A stretch of 64,000 nt of DNA from the NCBI RefSeq assembly GCF_001681715.1, contig NZ_LNWY01000004.1:62001-126000 (forward strand). The letters run 5' to 3'. Position 1 is the first letter of the stretch. Every line of letters starts with the position of its first letter. Of this stretch, positions 6,829 through 62,146 are shown one piece after another. The position numbers were made by a program, and so were the translations under genes. Source of the DNA: Tritonibacter mobilis (GTDB taxonomy: Bacteria > Pseudomonadota > Alphaproteobacteria > Rhodobacterales > Rhodobacteraceae). The notes beneath the pieces were generated by a model. It worked only from the letters and a program-made list of their open reading frames with translations, was not told the DNA's origin and ran no database searches.

Positions 6829-8229
6829 TCAGCCGAAGACAGTCGTCAGCGCCTTATCTACCGCATCGGTGATCTTGTCGATGTCATCCGCTGTGGCAAT
6901 CAGAGCGGGCGAGAAGCACAGCGTGTTGTTGCGACCGGGCACCGAGCGGTTGGTGACGCCGATGATCACGCCGTGCGTTCCGCATTCCGCCACGACTTTT
7001 TGTGCCAGTGCCTCGTCCACCGGCTCTTTGGTGTCACGGTCGGTGACGAGTTCTGCGCCAAGGAACAGGCCCTTGCCGCGCACATCGCCGATAACGGTGT
7101 GCTTTTCCTGCAAGGCCCGCAGGTTGGACATCATCCGCTCGCCCATCTTGGTGCAGTTCTCAAGGAGGTTTTCGTCCTCGATGATGCGCATGTTCTCCAG
7201 CGCTGCGGCGGGGCCTGCGGTGCAGCCGCCAAAGGTGGAGATGTCGCGGAAGTAGTTCATCTTGTCTGAGGCATCGTTCTTAAACAGATCAAAGACCTCT
7301 TCTGTTGTGACCATGCAGGCGATGGCGGCATAGCCGGAGGCGACGCCCTTGGCCATGGTCACGAAGTCGGGTTTGATGCCGTAGTGCTGATAGCCGAACC
7401 AATGGGTCCCGGTGCGCCCGATACCGCAGACCACCTCGTCGATGTGCAGGAGCACGTCGTATTGCTTGCAGATCTCCTGCACGCGCGGCCAGTAGCCTTC
7501 CGGGGCCTCAATGACGCCGCCGCCTGCGGTGACGGGTTCAAGGCAGAGCGCGCCAACCGTCTCGGGGCCTTCGCGCAGAATGACCTCTTCGATCAGATTG
7601 GCTGCAGCGATGCCGAAATCCTCGCCCGAGAGATGATCCAGACCCAGCTCGTGCTTGCGGTATTCCATGCAATGCGGCACCCGCACAAAATCAGGTGCAA
7701 AGGGGCCGTATTGTGCGTTGCGCTCGTCCTGACCGCCTGCGGACATCGCCGCCAGAGTGGAGCCATGGTAATCGCGGTCGCGATAGAGGATCTTGGTCTT
7801 CTTGCCGCCGTATTTCTTGTGCGCGATCTGGCGCACCATCTTGAACGCCTTCTCGTTGGCCTCAGAGCCAGAGTTGCAGTAGTAGACACGCGACATGCCG
7901 GGCATCTTCTCGATCAGCTTTTCGGCGTAAAGTGCGCCGGGCACCGAGCCTGCCGCCTGCGCGAAATAGCACATCTTTATCATCTGGTCGTAGACCGCCT
8001 TGCAGATGCTTTCGCGCCCATAGCCGACGTTTACGGTCCAGACCGCACCGGACACCGCGTCGAGCCATTCCTTGCCGTTCTGGTCCCAAACGCGCATGCC
8101 CTTGCCCTCGACGATGATGCGGGGATCGGAGGACTCAAACGGCTTGTGCTGGACCAGATGGTGCCAGACGTGCGCTTTGTCGGCCTCAATAACGTGGCTG
8201 AGATCGTTGTCGGTGAACGTGCCGTGCAT
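6829..8229 (-). CDS. tpa: Taurine--pyruvate aminotransferase
   Basis: 466 residues, a class-III PLP aminotransferase in the cytoplasm. It transfers the taurine amino group to pyruvate, giving sulfoacetaldehyde and alanine. Sequence signs are YYCNSGSEANEKAFKM, the HIDEVVCGIGRTG aspartate motif and the PLP lysine in DFVTMAKGVASGY. The whole protein closely resembles characterised Tpa proteins in motifs and length. It is separated from xsc and tauR by three unrelated genes. Direct repeats matching those before xsc lie about 100 nt upstream, consistent with TauR activation. Confidence 0.93.
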   Translation of the reverse strand: MHGTFTDNDLSHVIEADKAHVWHHLVQHKPFESSDPRIIVEGKGMRVWDQNGKEWLDAVSGAVWTVNVGYGRESICKAVYDQMIKMCYFAQAAGSVPGALYAEKLIEKMPGMSRVYYCNSGSEANEKAFKMVRQIAHKKYGGKKTKILYRDRDYHGSTLAAMSAGGQDERNAQYGPFAPDFVRVPHCMEYRKHELGLDHLSGEDFGIAAANLIEEVILREGPETVGALCLEPVTAGGGVIEAPEGYWPRVQEICKQYDVLLHIDEVVCGIGRTGTHWFGYQHYGIKPDFVTMAKGVASGYAAIACMVTTEEVFDLFKNDASDKMNYFRDISTFGGCTAGPAAALENMRIIEDENLLENCTKMGERMMSNLRALQEKHTVIGDVRGKGLFLGAELVTDRDTKEPVDEALAQKVVAECGTHGVIIGVTNRSVPGRNNTLCFSPALIATADDIDKITDAVDKALTTVFG

Positions 8230-8325
8230 GACATGTTCCTTTCATGGCTTATTCGAAGAATGAGGAAGAACGCCGAGGCGGCGCACTTTGTCAAAAATCA
8301 GCAAAGGACAATTCGAAGGCGGGGG

Positions 8326-8358
8326 ATAGGTCCAGACGGACCCAATGCTTAAGGCCAG
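8326..8358 (-). promoter_or_regulatory. Candidate TauR direct repeats upstream of tpa
   Basis: On the minus strand CTGGCCTTAA (8358-8349) and CTGGACCTAT (8335-8326) are spaced 23 bp apart. A TTGACA-like -35 (8294-8289) follows about 30 bp downstream, with only a weak -10. That fits an activator-dependent promoter. The site also lies in the shared region with the divergent BKACE gene. Confidence 0.6.
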
Positions 8359-8521
8359 AACGATTTCAAAAAGAACATTTGTGCGTAAATGTTTCTATTG
8401 AGGACATATGTATCTGCGGGCAGGGTTTGCGTGACTTGGAAGGTCATGAGGCTCTGGTGCAGAATGTCGACGCGATCAGCAGCGCCGCCAAAGCTCATGT
8501 GGCAGATGAGGATCCAAAACG

Positions 8522-9334
8522 GTGACGGAATTCACACTAATGGTTGCGCCAAACGGCGCGCGGCGGGGCAAAGATGATCACCTCGCGCTGCCGCTGACCG
8601 CAGAAGAACTGGCCGCGACCGCCAAGGCATGCCACCAGTTGGGCGCGCAAGCTCTGCACATGCATGTCCGGGACGATGAGGGGGTGCATTCGCTTGATGC
8701 GGGACGCTACCGGGATGCGATTGCAGCGGTGACGGAATGCGCGCCTGCCATGAGCATTCAGATCACCACCGAGAGTGCAGGTCTTTTTGATGTCCCGGCG
8801 CAGCTCGCTTGTCTTGAGGCGCTGCGCCCGGCAGCGGCATCCGTCTCGGTGCGAGAGATGGCACGGGATGCGGCGCTGGCGGCACGGGCCTATGCGGTTT
8901 GCGCTGAAGCGGGCACACAAGTGCAACATATCCTTTATACGCCCGCTTGTGTGGCGCAGCTACAGGCGTGGTACGCAGATGGGACAGTGCCGCAAGAGAT
9001 GCGCGATGTGATCCTTGTGTTGGGGCAATATGCCACCGGCCAGCCCGCAGCGCCTGCAATGCTACCTGAGTTTTTGGCGCTGATTGCACCACTTGCTCTC
9101 CGGTGGTCGCTTTGTGCCTTTGGGCCGCAGGAACATGTCTGCCTGCTTGCGGCGATCAAAGCCGGGGGACAGGTCCGGATTGGGTTTGAAAACAGCCTTG
9201 GCCCTGAAGATGGCGCGTCATGGGCCGACAACGCCGCGTCTGTCGCGGCCTTCCTGCAACAGGCCACCGCGCGTGGTCATATCCTTGCGCCACAAACGGA
9301 TGTGCCGGGCGCCAACCTGCGAGAGCCGACATGA
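8522..9334 (+). CDS. Beta-keto acid cleavage enzyme (BKACE, DUF849)
   Basis: 270 residues, a TIM-barrel zinc enzyme of the BKACE family. These condense a beta-keto acid with acetyl-CoA to give acetoacetate and a shortened acyl-CoA. Visible zinc ligands are the HMH pair in ALHMHVRDDEG and the glutamate of GFENSLG. The GTG start at 8522 has GAGGA 9 nt upstream. The gene overlaps the following aminotransferase by 4 bp (ATGA), so the aminotransferase probably supplies or consumes the keto acid. The keto-acid substrate cannot be predicted from sequence alone. Confidence 0.85.
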   Translation: MTEFTLMVAPNGARRGKDDHLALPLTAEELAATAKACHQLGAQALHMHVRDDEGVHSLDAGRYRDAIAAVTECAPAMSIQITTESAGLFDVPAQLACLEALRPAAASVSVREMARDAALAARAYAVCAEAGTQVQHILYTPACVAQLQAWYADGTVPQEMRDVILVLGQYATGQPAAPAMLPEFLALIAPLALRWSLCAFGPQEHVCLLAAIKAGGQVRIGFENSLGPEDGASWADNAASVAAFLQQATARGHILAPQTDVPGANLREPT

Positions 9335-10659
9335 GCCATATTTTTCCCCGTCATACCAAATCCGATCTGCCCACCGCAGTGGCAGGAGATGGCTGCTATC
9401 TGATTGATGCCAAGGGCAAACGCTATTTCGACGGCTCCGGTGGGGCCGCGGTATCCTGCCTTGGTCACTCTGATGCCGCGGTGATCAAAGCTGTGCAGGA
9501 GCAGGTTGAAAAGCTCGCCTTTGCGCATACCGGGTTTATGACCTCAGAGCCGGCTGAGGCTCTGGCGGATCTGCTCATCTCGCACGCGCCGGGATCATTG
9601 GACCGGGTGTACTTTGTTTCTGGCGGCTCCGAGGCGACAGAGGCGGCAATTAAACTCGCGCGGCAGTATCATCTGGAACGAGGAGAGCCGCAGCGCCGCC
9701 ATCTGATCGCGCGAAAGCAGAGCTATCACGGCAACACGCTTGGTGCGCTTGCGGCGGGCGGCAATGCGTGGCGGCGGCAGCAGTTTGACCCGCTCCTTAT
9801 CGGTGTGTCGCATATCGCGCCTTGCTATGAATATGTGGACCGGGCAGAGGGCGAGAGCAGCTTTGAATACGGGCAGCGTGTCGCCAATGAGCTGGAGGCA
9901 GAAATCCTGCGTCTTGGTCCTGACACGGTGATGGCGTTTATGGCGGAACCGGTGGTTGGGGCGACCTTGGGTGCGGTGCCAGCGGTTGAGGGCTATTTCA
10001 AACGGATCCGCGAGATTTGTGACACCTATGGCGTGCTTTTGATCTTTGATGAGGTGATGTGCGGCATGGGGCGCACCGGGCATCTGTTCGCCTGCGATGC
10101 GGACGGTGTGGCACCTGATATCCTCTGCATCGCAAAGGGGCTCGGTGCCGGGTATCAACCTATCGGCGCCATGCTCTGCTCAAGCGAGATTTATGAGGCA
10201 ATTGCACAAGGGACCGGGTTCTTCCAGCACGGGCATACATACCTCGGGCATCCGGTGGCGACAGCGGCGGGGCTTGCGGTGGTGCAGCAAATGCTGACGC
10301 GCAATCTGGTCGAACGTGCGGCTGAAATGGGCACGCAGTTGCACGCTGCTCTGATAGAGCGCTTCGGTCAGCATCCGCATGTGGGCGACATTCGGGGACG
10401 GGGCCTCTTTCGTGGGGTGGAGCTGGTTGAGGATCGCGAGACCAAGACACCTTTCGACCCCGCACATGGATTGGCGGCACGTATCAAACGGGCCGCGTTA
10501 GAGGCCGGGTTGATCTGTTATCCGATGTCCGGCACCCGCGATGGTCGCTATGGCGATCACATCCTGCTGGCCCCGCCGTTTATCGTGAATGATGACCAGA
10601 TCGGTGAGATTTGTGACAAGCTGACCTTCGCAATAGAACAGGGCCTCGGCGCGATCTGA
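9331..10659 (+). CDS. Class-III PLP aminotransferase (aspartate aminotransferase family)
   Basis: 442 residues from the ATG that overlaps the BKACE stop. Class-III motifs are present: FVSGGSEATEAAIKLARQY, LIFDEVMCGMGRTGH, and the PLP lysine in ILCIAKGLGAGYQP. It is an omega-amino-acid-type transaminase of unknown substrate, related only distantly to Tpa. Operon placement with BKACE suggests it deaminates a beta- or omega-amino acid to a keto acid that BKACE then cleaves (inference). The frame is open to 9220, but that stretch overlaps BKACE and is not typical of the family. Confidence 0.85.
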   Translation: MSHIFPRHTKSDLPTAVAGDGCYLIDAKGKRYFDGSGGAAVSCLGHSDAAVIKAVQEQVEKLAFAHTGFMTSEPAEALADLLISHAPGSLDRVYFVSGGSEATEAAIKLARQYHLERGEPQRRHLIARKQSYHGNTLGALAAGGNAWRRQQFDPLLIGVSHIAPCYEYVDRAEGESSFEYGQRVANELEAEILRLGPDTVMAFMAEPVVGATLGAVPAVEGYFKRIREICDTYGVLLIFDEVMCGMGRTGHLFACDADGVAPDILCIAKGLGAGYQPIGAMLCSSEIYEAIAQGTGFFQHGHTYLGHPVATAAGLAVVQQMLTRNLVERAAEMGTQLHAALIERFGQHPHVGDIRGRGLFRGVELVEDRETKTPFDPAHGLAARIKRAALEAGLICYPMSGTRDGRYGDHILLAPPFIVNDDQIGEICDKLTFAIEQGLGAI

Positions 10660-58251: not shown

Positions 58252-59511
58252 ATGGCCGAAGATCTCATCAACAGTTTCATGAATGGGCCGGACGAAAATG
58301 GTCGTTTCGGCATTTTTGGCGGTCGCTTTGTCAGCGAAACGCTGATGCCGCTGATCCTGAGCCTCGAAGAAGAATATGAGAAGGCCAAGGTGGACCCGGA
58401 CTTCTGGGCCGAGATGGACGATCTGTGGAAAAACTACGTGGGCCGTCCAAGCCCACTTTATTTTGCAGAGCGCCTGACCGAGCATCTGGGTGGCGCCAAG
58501 GTCTATCTGAAGCGCGACGAGCTGAACCACACCGGCGCGCATAAGGTCAACAATGTGCTCGGGCAGATCCTGCTGGCGCGCCGCATGGGCAAGACCCGGA
58601 TCATCGCGGAAACCGGTGCTGGCCAGCACGGGGTTGCCACTGCCACGGTCTGTGCCAAGTTCGGTTTGAAATGCGTCGTCTACATGGGCGCGCATGACGT
58701 GCGCCGTCAGGCCCCCAACGTGTTCCGCATGCGCCTGCTGGGCGCCGAAGTGATCCCCGTGACCTCTGGTCGTGGGACGCTGAAAGATGCGATGAATGAT
58801 GCGCTGCGTGACTGGGTGACCAATGTGCGCGATACATTCTATTGTATCGGCACGGTGGCTGGCCCGCATCCTTATCCGGCGATGGTGCGTGATTTCCAGT
58901 CGGTGATCGGCAAGGAAGTGCGCTGGCAACTGGCCGAGCAAGAAGGCGAAGGGCGTCTGCCTGATACTTTGGTTGCAGCCATCGGTGGCGGCTCAAACGC
59001 GATGGGGCTGTTCCATCCGTTCCTTGACGATAAGTCCGTGAATATCATCGGCGTCGAGGCGGGTGGCAAAGGCGTAGACGAGAAGATGGAACATTGCGCC
59101 TCCCTCACCGGCGGCCGTCCGGGCGTCCTGCACGGAAACCGTACCTATTTGCTGCAAGACGATGATGGGCAGATCCTTGAGGGGTTCTCGATCTCGGCCG
59201 GTCTGGACTATCCGGGCATCGGGCCCGAGCACGCGTGGCTGCATGAGACGGGCCGCGCGCAATATGTGTCGATCACCGACAAAGAAGCGCTGGAGGCGTT
59301 CCAGCTGTCTTGTGCGATGGAAGGCATCATCCCGGCGCTGGAGCCGAGCCACGCGCTTGCACATGTGATGAAGATCGCGCCGACCCTGCCCAAGGACCAC
59401 ATCATCGTAATGAATATGTGTGGTCGCGGCGACAAGGACATCTTCACCGTCGCGCGTCACCTTGGCTTTGACATGTCCGACACTGAAGAAGGCCGTGATC
59501 TCGAAGAGTGA
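58252..59511 (+). CDS. trpB: Tryptophan synthase beta subunit
   Basis: 419 residues. PLP lysine K98 in [19 protein letters not shown], and the PLP-phosphate loop [10 protein letters not shown]. It condenses indole and serine. No trpA is present in the window. It is separated from trpF by LysR, and likely has its own promoter in 58131-58251. Confidence 0.97.
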
Positions 59512-59701: not shown

Positions 59702-62146
59702 ATGCAGCAAGACACCTTGCAGGCCGTTCAGCAACTTCAGCTTGCGGCAGACCATATGTGGACAATCATCGCCGCTGCTTTGGTGTTCTTGATGCAGCTT
59801 GGCTTTCTTCTTGTCGAAGCGGGTATGGCGCGGTCCAAGAACAGCATCAACGTTGCGCAAAAGAACATCACCGATTTCCTTGTGTCGGTCAGCGCCTTTT
59901 ATGTGCTGGGGTTCGGGTTGATGTTTGGTGTGTCCTACGGTGGCTGGTTTGGCACCGATAATTTTGCGTTCCAGCAGGCAGATGACTGGCAATACACGTT
60001 TTTTGTGTTTCAGGCGGTCTTTGCAGGTACCGCGGCCACCATCATGTCCGGTGCGGTGGCAGAACGGATGCGGTATGGCGTCTATGTGGCGGCGGCCTTG
60101 TTCATCGGTCTGCTGATCTACCCTGTGAGCGGCCACTGGGCGTGGGGCAATTTGCTGAATGGCGAGAACGCGGCCTATCTGGCGGACAAGGGGTTCATTG
60201 ATTTTGCCGGCTCGACCGTGGTGCATTCGGTTGGGGCGTGGGTTGCGCTGGCTGGCGTGGTTGTACTGGGCGCACGTATCGGCAAGTTCAACGCCGATGG
60301 CAGCGCCAATACCCTGCACGGCCATAGCTATGTGCTGGCAACAGGGGGCGCGATTATCCTCTGGGTCGGCTGGATTGGCTTTAACGGTGGCTCTACTACT
60401 GCGGCCAGTCCGGATTTTGCGCATATTGTCCTGAATACGCTGCTCGCGGCCTGTTTTGGCGGCGTCACGGGGATATTTTCGGGCCGTCTCATCGACCCCG
60501 TCAATGTTCCGCATCGCCCAATAAACGGCAGTCTTGCTGGGCTGGTGGCCATCACGGCTGGGTGTGACGCAGTCACTGTGCAAGGGGCGGTTCTGATTGG
60601 GGCCGGGGCAGGGATCGTGGTCGTTGCCTCTGAATGGGTGATGGAGAATATCCTGAAGCTGGACGATGTGGTCGGCGCGGTCTCCGTTCATGGGGTTTGC
60701 GGTGCGTTTGGCACAATCGCGCTCTCCTTTTTTGCGATGCCCGGAAAACTCACGATGGAGAGCGCGGGCGCGCAGGCACTTGTGCAACTGGAGGGCGTGG
60801 CGCTGGTTTTTGTCTGGGCCTTTGGTCTCAGCTGGCTGTTCTTCAAGGCCATTGATTTGACATTCGACATCCGCGTGCCACGTGAGGACGAGATGATCGG
60901 GCTCAACAGTACAGAACATGGTGCAACTCTGGGAACCGGCGCGCTTCAAAAGCAACTTGAGGCAATGACGCAAAATGGCGTTGATCTGACCCGTCGGCTG
61001 GATGAGAGCACCGGAGATGAAGCAGCGGAACTTGCAGCGTTATTCAATCCGTTCATCGATGAGGTGCACGATCTGGTCTGCGATATTCGCGAAAACGCGC
61101 GTCGGATGAAAAGCTCTTCATCGGGGCTGGAGTCCCTGTCCGTCGCGTTTCGCGATGGTGCTGAGAAGTCCGGTGCGCTGACTGGCGCGGTCAGCAAAAG
61201 CTCTGGCGAAGTGGCAGGACAGGCGCGCAACAATCGCGAGATTGCCGAACAAATCCTGTCGGAGATGACCCGGATTGCCAGCAGTGCAGAAGGCATGTCG
61301 GATGAGGTCACAGCCGTGTCAGACGCGATCGCTGAACTGATGAATTCTATCAGTCAGATTTCAGGCAATGCCAGTGCGACCAGTGGGGTCACCAATGAGG
61401 CCAATGTCCTGTCCGGCGAGGCGGTCGAGACGATGCACGCGCTCTCCAAAGCCTCAGAAGAGATTGAGGCCGTGGTTGGGCTTATCCAGAAAATCACTAT
61501 GCAAACCAATATGCTGGCCATCAACGCTGCGGTTGAAGCCGCGCGTGCAGGCGATGCAGGCAAAGGGTTTGCGATTGTTGCGGGGCAGGTGCGAAGTCTG
61601 GCCGCCGAAACGGACAAAGCGGCGGAGGAAATCCGGCAGCGGATCTCTCATATGCGCAACCAGTCCGATGACGCCTCGACAGTGATTTCCGGCATTACCG
61701 AATTGATGCAGGCCATCCATGCGTCGGTTGAGGGCATCACCAGCGAGGTTGAAAGCCAGCGTCGTGCGGCAGGGCGTGTGTCTGAACGTATGACAAGCGC
61801 ATCCAGCAGTGCGCAGACAGTGACACAGTCCATCCAAGACGTGCAGCAACGGGCAGAAACCGTGCGCAGTAATGCCACTCAGAATGAGGAACGCTTGTCG
61901 CGGAACGCGGCCACGGCCAGCGATCTGCAGGAGGATGCGCGAGAAAGTGCGGCGCAATCTGTGCTGCTTGCGGATGAGGCGAATGCGATCAATCTGCTTT
62001 CTGATGAGTTGACCACATCAGTAGAGCGCTTTGCCCTAAAAGAGGATGAGGCGGATCGGGATGCGGATTGGTTGGCGCAAGAGGCGCAACGACGACCGCA
62101 TGCGTCGGTCGAGGGGAAGACTGAGAAGAGGGCTGGCAGCGTTTAG
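59702..62146 (+). CDS. Ammonium transporter fused to a methyl-accepting chemotaxis signalling domain
   Basis: 814 residues. Residues 15-400 are a complete Amt: F107 and F227 (phenylalanine gate), W148, D167, and the twin histidines H175 (STVVHS) and H330 (VSVHGVCG). A typical Amt C-terminal IGLNSTEHG follows at about 399-407. Residues 428-460 (DLTRRLDESTGDEAAELAALF) resemble the second helix of a HAMP domain. Residues 470-790 are a coiled-coil chemoreceptor domain with the tip QTNMLAINAAVEAARAGDAG (601-620) and GFAIVA. There is no periplasmic ligand domain and no CheR-tethering pentapeptide. It is a likely ammonium chemosensor. GGATTGATTT-type promoter elements were not identified. Confidence 0.93.
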   Translation: MQQDTLQAVQQLQLAADHMWTIIAAALVFLMQLGFLLVEAGMARSKNSINVAQKNITDFLVSVSAFYVLGFGLMFGVSYGGWFGTDNFAFQQADDWQYTFFVFQAVFAGTAATIMSGAVAERMRYGVYVAAALFIGLLIYPVSGHWAWGNLLNGENAAYLADKGFIDFAGSTVVHSVGAWVALAGVVVLGARIGKFNADGSANTLHGHSYVLATGGAIILWVGWIGFNGGSTTAASPDFAHIVLNTLLAACFGGVTGIFSGRLIDPVNVPHRPINGSLAGLVAITAGCDAVTVQGAVLIGAGAGIVVVASEWVMENILKLDDVVGAVSVHGVCGAFGTIALSFFAMPGKLTMESAGAQALVQLEGVALVFVWAFGLSWLFFKAIDLTFDIRVPREDEMIGLNSTEHGATLGTGALQKQLEAMTQNGVDLTRRLDESTGDEAAELAALFNPFIDEVHDLVCDIRENARRMKSSSSGLESLSVAFRDGAEKSGALTGAVSKSSGEVAGQARNNREIAEQILSEMTRIASSAEGMSDEVTAVSDAIAELMNSISQISGNASATSGVTNEANVLSGEAVETMHALSKASEEIEAVVGLIQKITMQTNMLAINAAVEAARAGDAGKGFAIVAGQVRSLAAETDKAAEEIRQRISHMRNQSDDASTVISGITELMQAIHASVEGITSEVESQRRAAGRVSERMTSASSSAQTVTQSIQDVQQRAETVRSNATQNEERLSRNAATASDLQEDARESAAQSVLLADEANAINLLSDELTTSVERFALKEDEADRDADWLAQEAQRRPHASVEGKTEKRAGSV

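Follow-up and report, generated by a model that had tools for sequence, protein, structure and literature searches.

The window (the whole stretch of 64,000 nucleotides that was analysed here) carries, at positions 59702..62146 of the forward strand, a gene whose translated frame and Pfam matches identify an 814-residue fusion of an ammonium transporter (Amt) domain with a chemoreceptor signalling domain, hereafter Amt-MCP. Translation yields a single uninterrupted 814-codon frame without an internal stop, as read in the first-pass annotation, and the layout proposed there, namely Amt followed by a HAMP-like segment and a chemoreceptor module, is recovered both with Pfam profiles and in an AlphaFold2 model. 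The gene follows trpB, which encodes the tryptophan synthase beta subunit (58252..59511, forward strand, named by sequence reading) and which marks the insertion site, being itself outside the system. The AlphaFold2 monomer model (24 sequences, mean pLDDT 81.5, pTM 0.59) comprises a high-confidence Amt fold, a short helix at residues 411-424, a connector and a long hairpin that starts at residue 440. Among solved structures, this model is closest to the sensor Amt 6eu6 and the Sd-Amt1 entries 8qj4 and 8qj3, with E. coli AmtB ranking below them.

The fusion is present and intact in two congeners, G005 (88% identity) and G007 (80%), neither with an internal stop, and at 98% identity in two Tritonibacter mobilis records; given these independent intact copies, a frameshift or assembly artefact is ruled out. 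In the comparison with the G005 copy, dN/dS was 0.055 for the Amt domain, 0.023 for the HAMP-like part, 0.020 for the tip, 0.068 for the C-terminal arm and 0.244 for the tail, figures that are rough because synonymous change is near saturation (dS 0.9-2.0).

The HAMP-like segment (60941..61075, forward strand, approximately residues 414-458) consists of a short helix, a connector and a second helix. The HAMP profile matches residues 415-455 at 15.7 bits, under the Pfam cut-off of 25; the same profile is matched at E <= 0.001 by 8 of 20 members of the Amt-MCP family, and the model places a helix-connector-helix at this position. The chemoreceptor hairpin follows (61076..62029, forward strand, approximately residues 459-776, tip glutamate 612) and includes the MCPsignal match (PF00015) at 61400..61867 of the same strand (residues 567-722; 107.2 bits against a cut-off of 34.6, E 1e-30). 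The conserved receptor tip is QTNMLAINAAVEAARAGDAGKGFAIVA, and the profile match together with the tip alignment upholds the earlier call of a signalling domain with a conserved tip. When the MCP half was compared with plasmid records, all matches beyond three Amt-MCP records were below 40% identity among the best 30 of 103 matching records.

Arm lengths were counted from the tip glutamate, with a loose HAMP-type motif as the anchor of the N-terminal arm. The anchors of the Amt-MCP arms lie 163 and 165 residues from the tip, as against 128 and 130 in native receptors, so that both arms are about 35 residues longer while staying symmetric. The native distances are nearly constant: the N-arm anchor is at one distance in 16 of 17 receptors, and wherever the arm is complete (16 receptors), the C-terminal aromatic residue sits at a distance of 130 residues from the tip, as it does in chain 6s1k, which we take to be Tsr. 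Long arms were considered as a trait of the whole family and rejected as such, given that only 14 of 27 Amt-MCP rows have a long N-arm, 7 of these 14 with the aromatic residue at 165. Six members (L065, L067, L068, L074, L092 and L132) form a shorter-armed subfamily, L137 has its anchor where native receptors have theirs, arm length deviates in L159, L166, L189 and L134, and the tip was not found in L160 and L208 in this survey of 27 rows. The 35 additional residues per arm would correspond to 36H plus ten heptads, a class absent from the available part of the MiST3 list (PMC6943060); we assign no heptad class because none listed there fits and because the additional residues could not be aligned with certainty.

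From the membrane to the tip, the chain of Amt-MCP measures 224-235 residues, depending on whether the last membrane helix is taken to end at residue 388 (model) or 377 (hydropathy window). Among the 14 membrane-bound native receptors, the hydropathy window gives 230-238 residues for 12 and 261-264 for the other two, the native receptors L012, L015 and L020, which lack a predicted membrane helix, being excluded; for 11 Amt-MCP rows it gives 220-235 in ten and 303 in L059, whose last helix it failed to detect. All nine native receptors scanned contain HAMP, and five of them have a second, HAMP_2 match, below the cut-off in four cases. Because the chain lengths are similar, the reach of Amt-MCP may match that of the native receptors, perhaps through the trading of a HAMP for longer arms, as far as can be judged from sequence.

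The methylation-site consensus pattern applied here comes from general knowledge of chemoreceptors. A motif scan of the Amt-MCP arms detected no full consensus site; at two places, 5 of the 6 fixed positions agree, so that the protein may still be methylated. Among the native receptors, 16 of 17 contain the full consensus, at -82 and/or +107 from the tip in all 16, and only L020 has no match. The consensus is absent in 21 of the 23 Amt-MCP rows that passed the filters, the two exceptions being L189 (a single match, at +138) and L060 (likewise one, at +114); L134, L137, L160, L161 and L208 failed the filters and were not counted, and L161 had no match in a separate scan. Chance matches arise in 0.16 of shuffles of the Amt-MCP arms and 0.11 of those of a native receptor, so it is the fixed places of the native sites that make the contrast real. 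At least one match is present in each of the four receptors without an Amt domain whose genes neighbour Amt or Amt-MCP genes in relatives, with the tip probably misplaced in the case of L239. A C-terminal pentapeptide that binds CheR is a feature, not a universal one, of methyl-accepting receptors; Amt-MCP ends in KRAGSV and lacks such a tether, which discriminates little because just 6 of 17 native receptors end in one. The missing full consensus and the missing tether suggest that Amt-MCP probably does not adapt through its own methylation. The description of the protein as a methyl-accepting receptor thus stands with respect to the MCPsignal domain and the tip and fails with respect to the canonical type, for which the full consensus and the CheR tether are lacking and the arms are unlike the native ones; by its signalling domain Amt-MCP is classified as a chemoreceptor, though not, on sequence criteria, as a canonical methyl-accepting receptor.

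The host genome (4.7 Mb, 59 contigs) encodes the partners that such a receptor would need. A search for the CheA and CheW genes implied by the signalling route proposed earlier recovered both with the CheW profile, one each, surrounded by CheY, CheR, CheB, CheD and a receptor gene. There are 7 flagellin matches and 20 MCPsignal matches, including two partial ones and the Amt-MCP gene itself. A transposase gene (L047, 782-1129) adjoins the che cluster near a contig end, and a native chemoreceptor gene on contig C9 (L011) has an in-frame TAG inside the signalling region. The 7 kb surrounding the Amt-MCP gene have a counterpart, aligned at 95-97%, on a 1.26-Mb replicon of Tritonibacter mobilis F1926.

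Amt-MCP was verified in at least 7 of 394 genomes drawn from the family, at least 5 of 385 from the class and at least 3 of 398 from the phylum, of which G919 lies outside the class; each count includes the window's own genome and is a lower bound, given the E-value limits and the at most 30 loci listed per draw. CheW is present in 7 of the 7 carriers found in the family draw, compared with 193 of the 394 genomes (hypergeometric P 0.0064), and in all 17 genomes behind one further set of examined loci. In G037, genes for MCP, CheW, CheB, CheR, CheY, CheA, CheY and Amt-MCP follow one another in this order on one strand; the Amt-MCP copy there is divergent, truncated at the end of its contig and placed apart from the main Amt-MCP group. 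Of 21 Amt-MCP loci examined besides that of G037, 18, the window's own among them, showed neither a che gene nor a second MCP gene nearby; CheY, CheB and CheR are encoded about 1 kb upstream in L059, and another receptor gene lies upstream in L054 and L058.

These features bear on an alternative that we regard as unlikely, if far from negligible, in which Amt-MCP signals outside the main receptor array, in a cluster of its own or as a decoy that titrates CheA and CheW, with little effect on steering. The arms, longer by about 35 residues on both sides than those of native receptors, the missing full methylation site and the single CheA/CheW pair of the host would all be compatible with such an arrangement. 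According to the available part of PMC7534058, one heptad more or less excludes a receptor from the main cluster, and under this rule Amt-MCP is predicted to sit in separate clusters. The comparable membrane-to-tip chain (224-235 residues against 230-238 in 12 of 14 native receptors), by which the reach may match, and the linkage to a che operon in G037 argue against it, and the excerpt of PMC9855816 on McpA of Shewanella oneidensis suggests that the heptad-length rule may bend.

The Amt domain (59759..60928, forward strand, residues 20-409) matches Pfam Ammonium_transp (PF00909) with 329.5 bits against a cut-off of 23.2 (E 3e-98) and TIGR00836 with 347.4 bits against 343.3. The pore residues named in the first pass (F107, W148, D167, H175, F227 and H330) are right in the protein's own numbering, by translation and by alignment to 6eu6. 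The pore set is complete, with F107 and F227 as the Phe gate, W148 and S231 in the filter, the twin His pair H175 and H330, and D167. In the available text of PMC5764959, the ammonium ligands of Ks-Amt5 are Q24, E31, N47, D50, T51, T109 and T112. Six of the seven are kept in the fusion, with Q32, E39, N55, D58, T113 and S116 as the equivalents of Q24, E31, N47, D50, T109 and T112, Ser replacing Thr in the last case. The seventh, T51, is not kept and corresponds to F59; of 24 Amt-MCP rows, the 22 without a gap have Phe or Leu at this position, and Phe is found there in 18 of 27 other fusions. The bulky residues F27, Y30 and F34 are described in the same part of that paper as closing the Ks-Amt5 pore (PMC5764959); F27 is kept as F35, and Y30 and F34 are replaced by V38 and M42. 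With two of the three pore-closing residues different, the fusion may still conduct ammonium.

With the T51 position left out, the site reads QENDT[ST]. Of 30 Amt-MCP rows, 28 carry this pattern (the remaining two are gapped), as do 59 of 65 other Amt fusions (2 gapped, 4 different), compared with 13 of 80 stand-alone Amts. Partial cores with an aligned span below 330 residues and exact duplicates were excluded, and 3 truncated rows are not counted; among the Amt-MCP rows, the gapped L024 duplicates the window's gene in shortened form, and L030 is the open piece of a broken copy. "Other fusion" was applied to proteins extended C-terminally by 150 residues or more, the output being named by Pfam for nine proteins of this class. 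Because all these sets were gathered by similarity to the Amt-MCP protein, they do not sample Amts at random, and shared descent may account for part of the pattern. Loop 5 is 20-21 residues long in 24 of 24 Amt-MCP rows and 20 in Ks-Amt5, with the same length in the window's protein; since stand-alone Amts have 14-20 residues there, a long loop 5 is not specific to sensor Amts.

In the Amt tree, one group of 59 rows (SH-aLRT 99) unites every fused row with Ks-Amt5 and 7 stand-alone Amts. Within it, the MCP rows do not form one clade, with details made unsure by long branches. The tree does not establish a single origin of the fusion, because the 24 MCP rows require 4 changes, at least 2 of them forced by starred branches. 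Judged from the site and its grouping with Ks-Amt5, the Amt part is of the sensor type. A stand-alone sensor-type Amt (L071, 4884-6191) has a separate chemoreceptor gene (7197-9548) about 1 kb downstream, the pair being possibly a split version of the fusion, and tandem pairs of sensor-type Amts adjoin a response-regulator protein in L135 and L136. For L080 and L111, stand-alone Amts with the site pattern, no signalling domain was detected in the scanned neighbours. Other outputs also occur: L138 (628-2730) joins an Amt to a class III nucleotide cyclase domain (Pfam Guanylate_cyc), and L140 (673-2706), by similarity to it, another such fusion. The host itself contains a second Amt fusion on contig C4, Amt-GGDEF-EAL, with the sensor-site pattern (L046, 1489-4209). 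It also has a separate AmtB adjoined by a gene assigned by sequence reading as GlnK-like; a Pfam match on contig C45 was rejected as a further Amt, being partial and barely over the cut-off.

Would Amt-MCP then be mainly a transporter, with a tail that places uptake near the array or couples flux to it and no signal from a dedicated binding site? The fully kept pore residues and the loss of two of the three Ks-Amt5 pore-closing residues fit this explanation, which we nevertheless consider improbable. The sensor-site pattern in 28 of 28 ungapped Amt-MCP rows against 13 of 80 stand-alone Amts speaks against it, as does the low dN/dS of the HAMP-like part and the tip relative to G005, and for uptake the host already has AmtB and its GlnK-like neighbour.

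The occurrence of the gene within the genus is patchy. A search of 13 genomes with the protein detected it intact in 3 and broken in 2 (G002 and G008), with no match in the other 8. Amt-MCP follows trpB in 3 of 17 genomes; pth, named by sequence reading, lies downstream of trpB without Amt-MCP in 9, and neither gene is found after trpB within the examined stretch in 5. The interrupted copies of two relatives (L030/L051 and L031/L070) are not within the examined stretch downstream of trpB. Another copy (L244, 5929-10875) is on a conjugative plasmid of Phaeobacter inhibens P88, with recombinase and IS481 transposase genes downstream. That the fusion was acquired and is on its way out, without a present function, could be read from this patchiness, from its place after trpB in only 3 of 17 genomes and from the two broken copies, but is very improbable in view of the low dN/dS that the three intact copies show in both halves, saturated as dS is.

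We therefore favour the reading in which Amt-MCP acts as a chemoreceptor that senses ammonium directly and does not adapt through methylation of its own, which is probably correct on the present sequence evidence. The earlier proposal that it senses ammonium and signals directly to CheA and CheW is supported in part, by the sensor-type site, the tip, the che genes and flagellins of the host and the che linkage in G037. The favoured reading also draws on the Amt tree group shared with Ks-Amt5, the structural ranking of the model, the separate AmtB available for uptake, the presence of CheW in every carrier of the family draw and the low dN/dS of the Amt domain, HAMP-like part and tip. Against it stand the changed T51 and pore-closing residues, the arms unlike those of native receptors, the broken or missing copies in the genus and the scarcity of che genes near the examined loci. 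Binding, coupling, output and behaviour can be sketched from Ks-Amt5 and established chemoreceptor biology. External NH4+ would pass the Amt selectivity filter and bind an intramembrane site like that of Ks-Amt5; the bound ammonium would displace the C-terminal strand of the Amt domain (GLN..EHGATLGTG), in which E405-H406 is invariant across 24 aligned sequences. The strand would pass the change to the HAMP-like switch and then down the coiled-coil hairpin, whose tip would control the cell's single CheA/CheW kinase, such that ammonium biases swimming. The receptor would report the level of ammonium rather than only its change, unless neighbouring receptors adapt it in trans.

The difficulty of combining an Amt trimer with receptor dimers, raised in the first-pass annotation, is real. 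Two Amt trimers provide six strands, as in one trimer of receptor dimers, and on paper the two symmetries can be reconciled in this way. It is doubtful that Amt-MCP stands for a class of chemoreceptors in which a trimeric transporter is the sensor, no methylation memory is built in, the absolute ammonium level is reported to CheA and the core-unit geometry is set by the Amt trimer. The favoured reading and the alternatives overlap, and their likelihoods are not shares of one whole.

Taken together, Amt-MCP appears to be an Amt sensor with a chemoreceptor output and apparently without methylation adaptation of its own. If so, bacteria would gain a direct ammonium sense for swimming, and a structural question is posed, namely how a transporter with three-fold symmetry can drive a signalling hairpin with two-fold symmetry. 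A testable prediction on adaptation follows from the missing methylation consensus, and the six-residue site may help to separate sensor-type from uptake Amts in genomes. Receptors of this kind can go unseen, as illustrated by the plasmid relative in P. inhibens, which is annotated just as an ammonium transporter. Among the literature matches listed, whose scope left out most subscription journals, no title or abstract start describes the protein. Such fusions may be mentioned in the 2009 review by Tremblay and Hallenbeck.

Among known systems, Ks-Amt5, the ammonium-sensor histidine kinase of Kuenenia stuttgartiensis (6eu6), has an Amt domain 43% identical to that of the fusion by structural alignment and differs in its output, a histidine kinase instead of a chemoreceptor hairpin. 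In the available part of PMC5764959, Ks-Amt5 is described as lacking HAMP, so that coupling would differ from that through the HAMP-like segment of the fusion, and binding currents without translocation are reported. The Sd-Amt1 receptor of Shewanella denitrificans (8qj3, 8qj4, 8qpf), likened to the fusion by entry titles and structure match, is an Amt-type receptor with 38-39% identity to it and shorter chains of 644-661 residues, compared with 814. The host Amt-GGDEF-EAL protein and the Amt-kinase and Amt-cyclase fusions of relatives share the Amt tree group with the fusion and differ in their output domains. Canonical chemoreceptors, Tsr and the 17 native receptors among them, have MCPsignal and the conserved tip in common with Amt-MCP, in which a transporter replaces the periplasmic sensor domain and which departs from the native receptors in its arms, longer by about 35 residues, and in lacking a full methylation consensus. 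Aer, the aerotaxis receptor, senses redox state via a PAS domain and is able to work without methylation-based adaptation; its comparison with Amt-MCP used the sequence match of the tip region (31cj).
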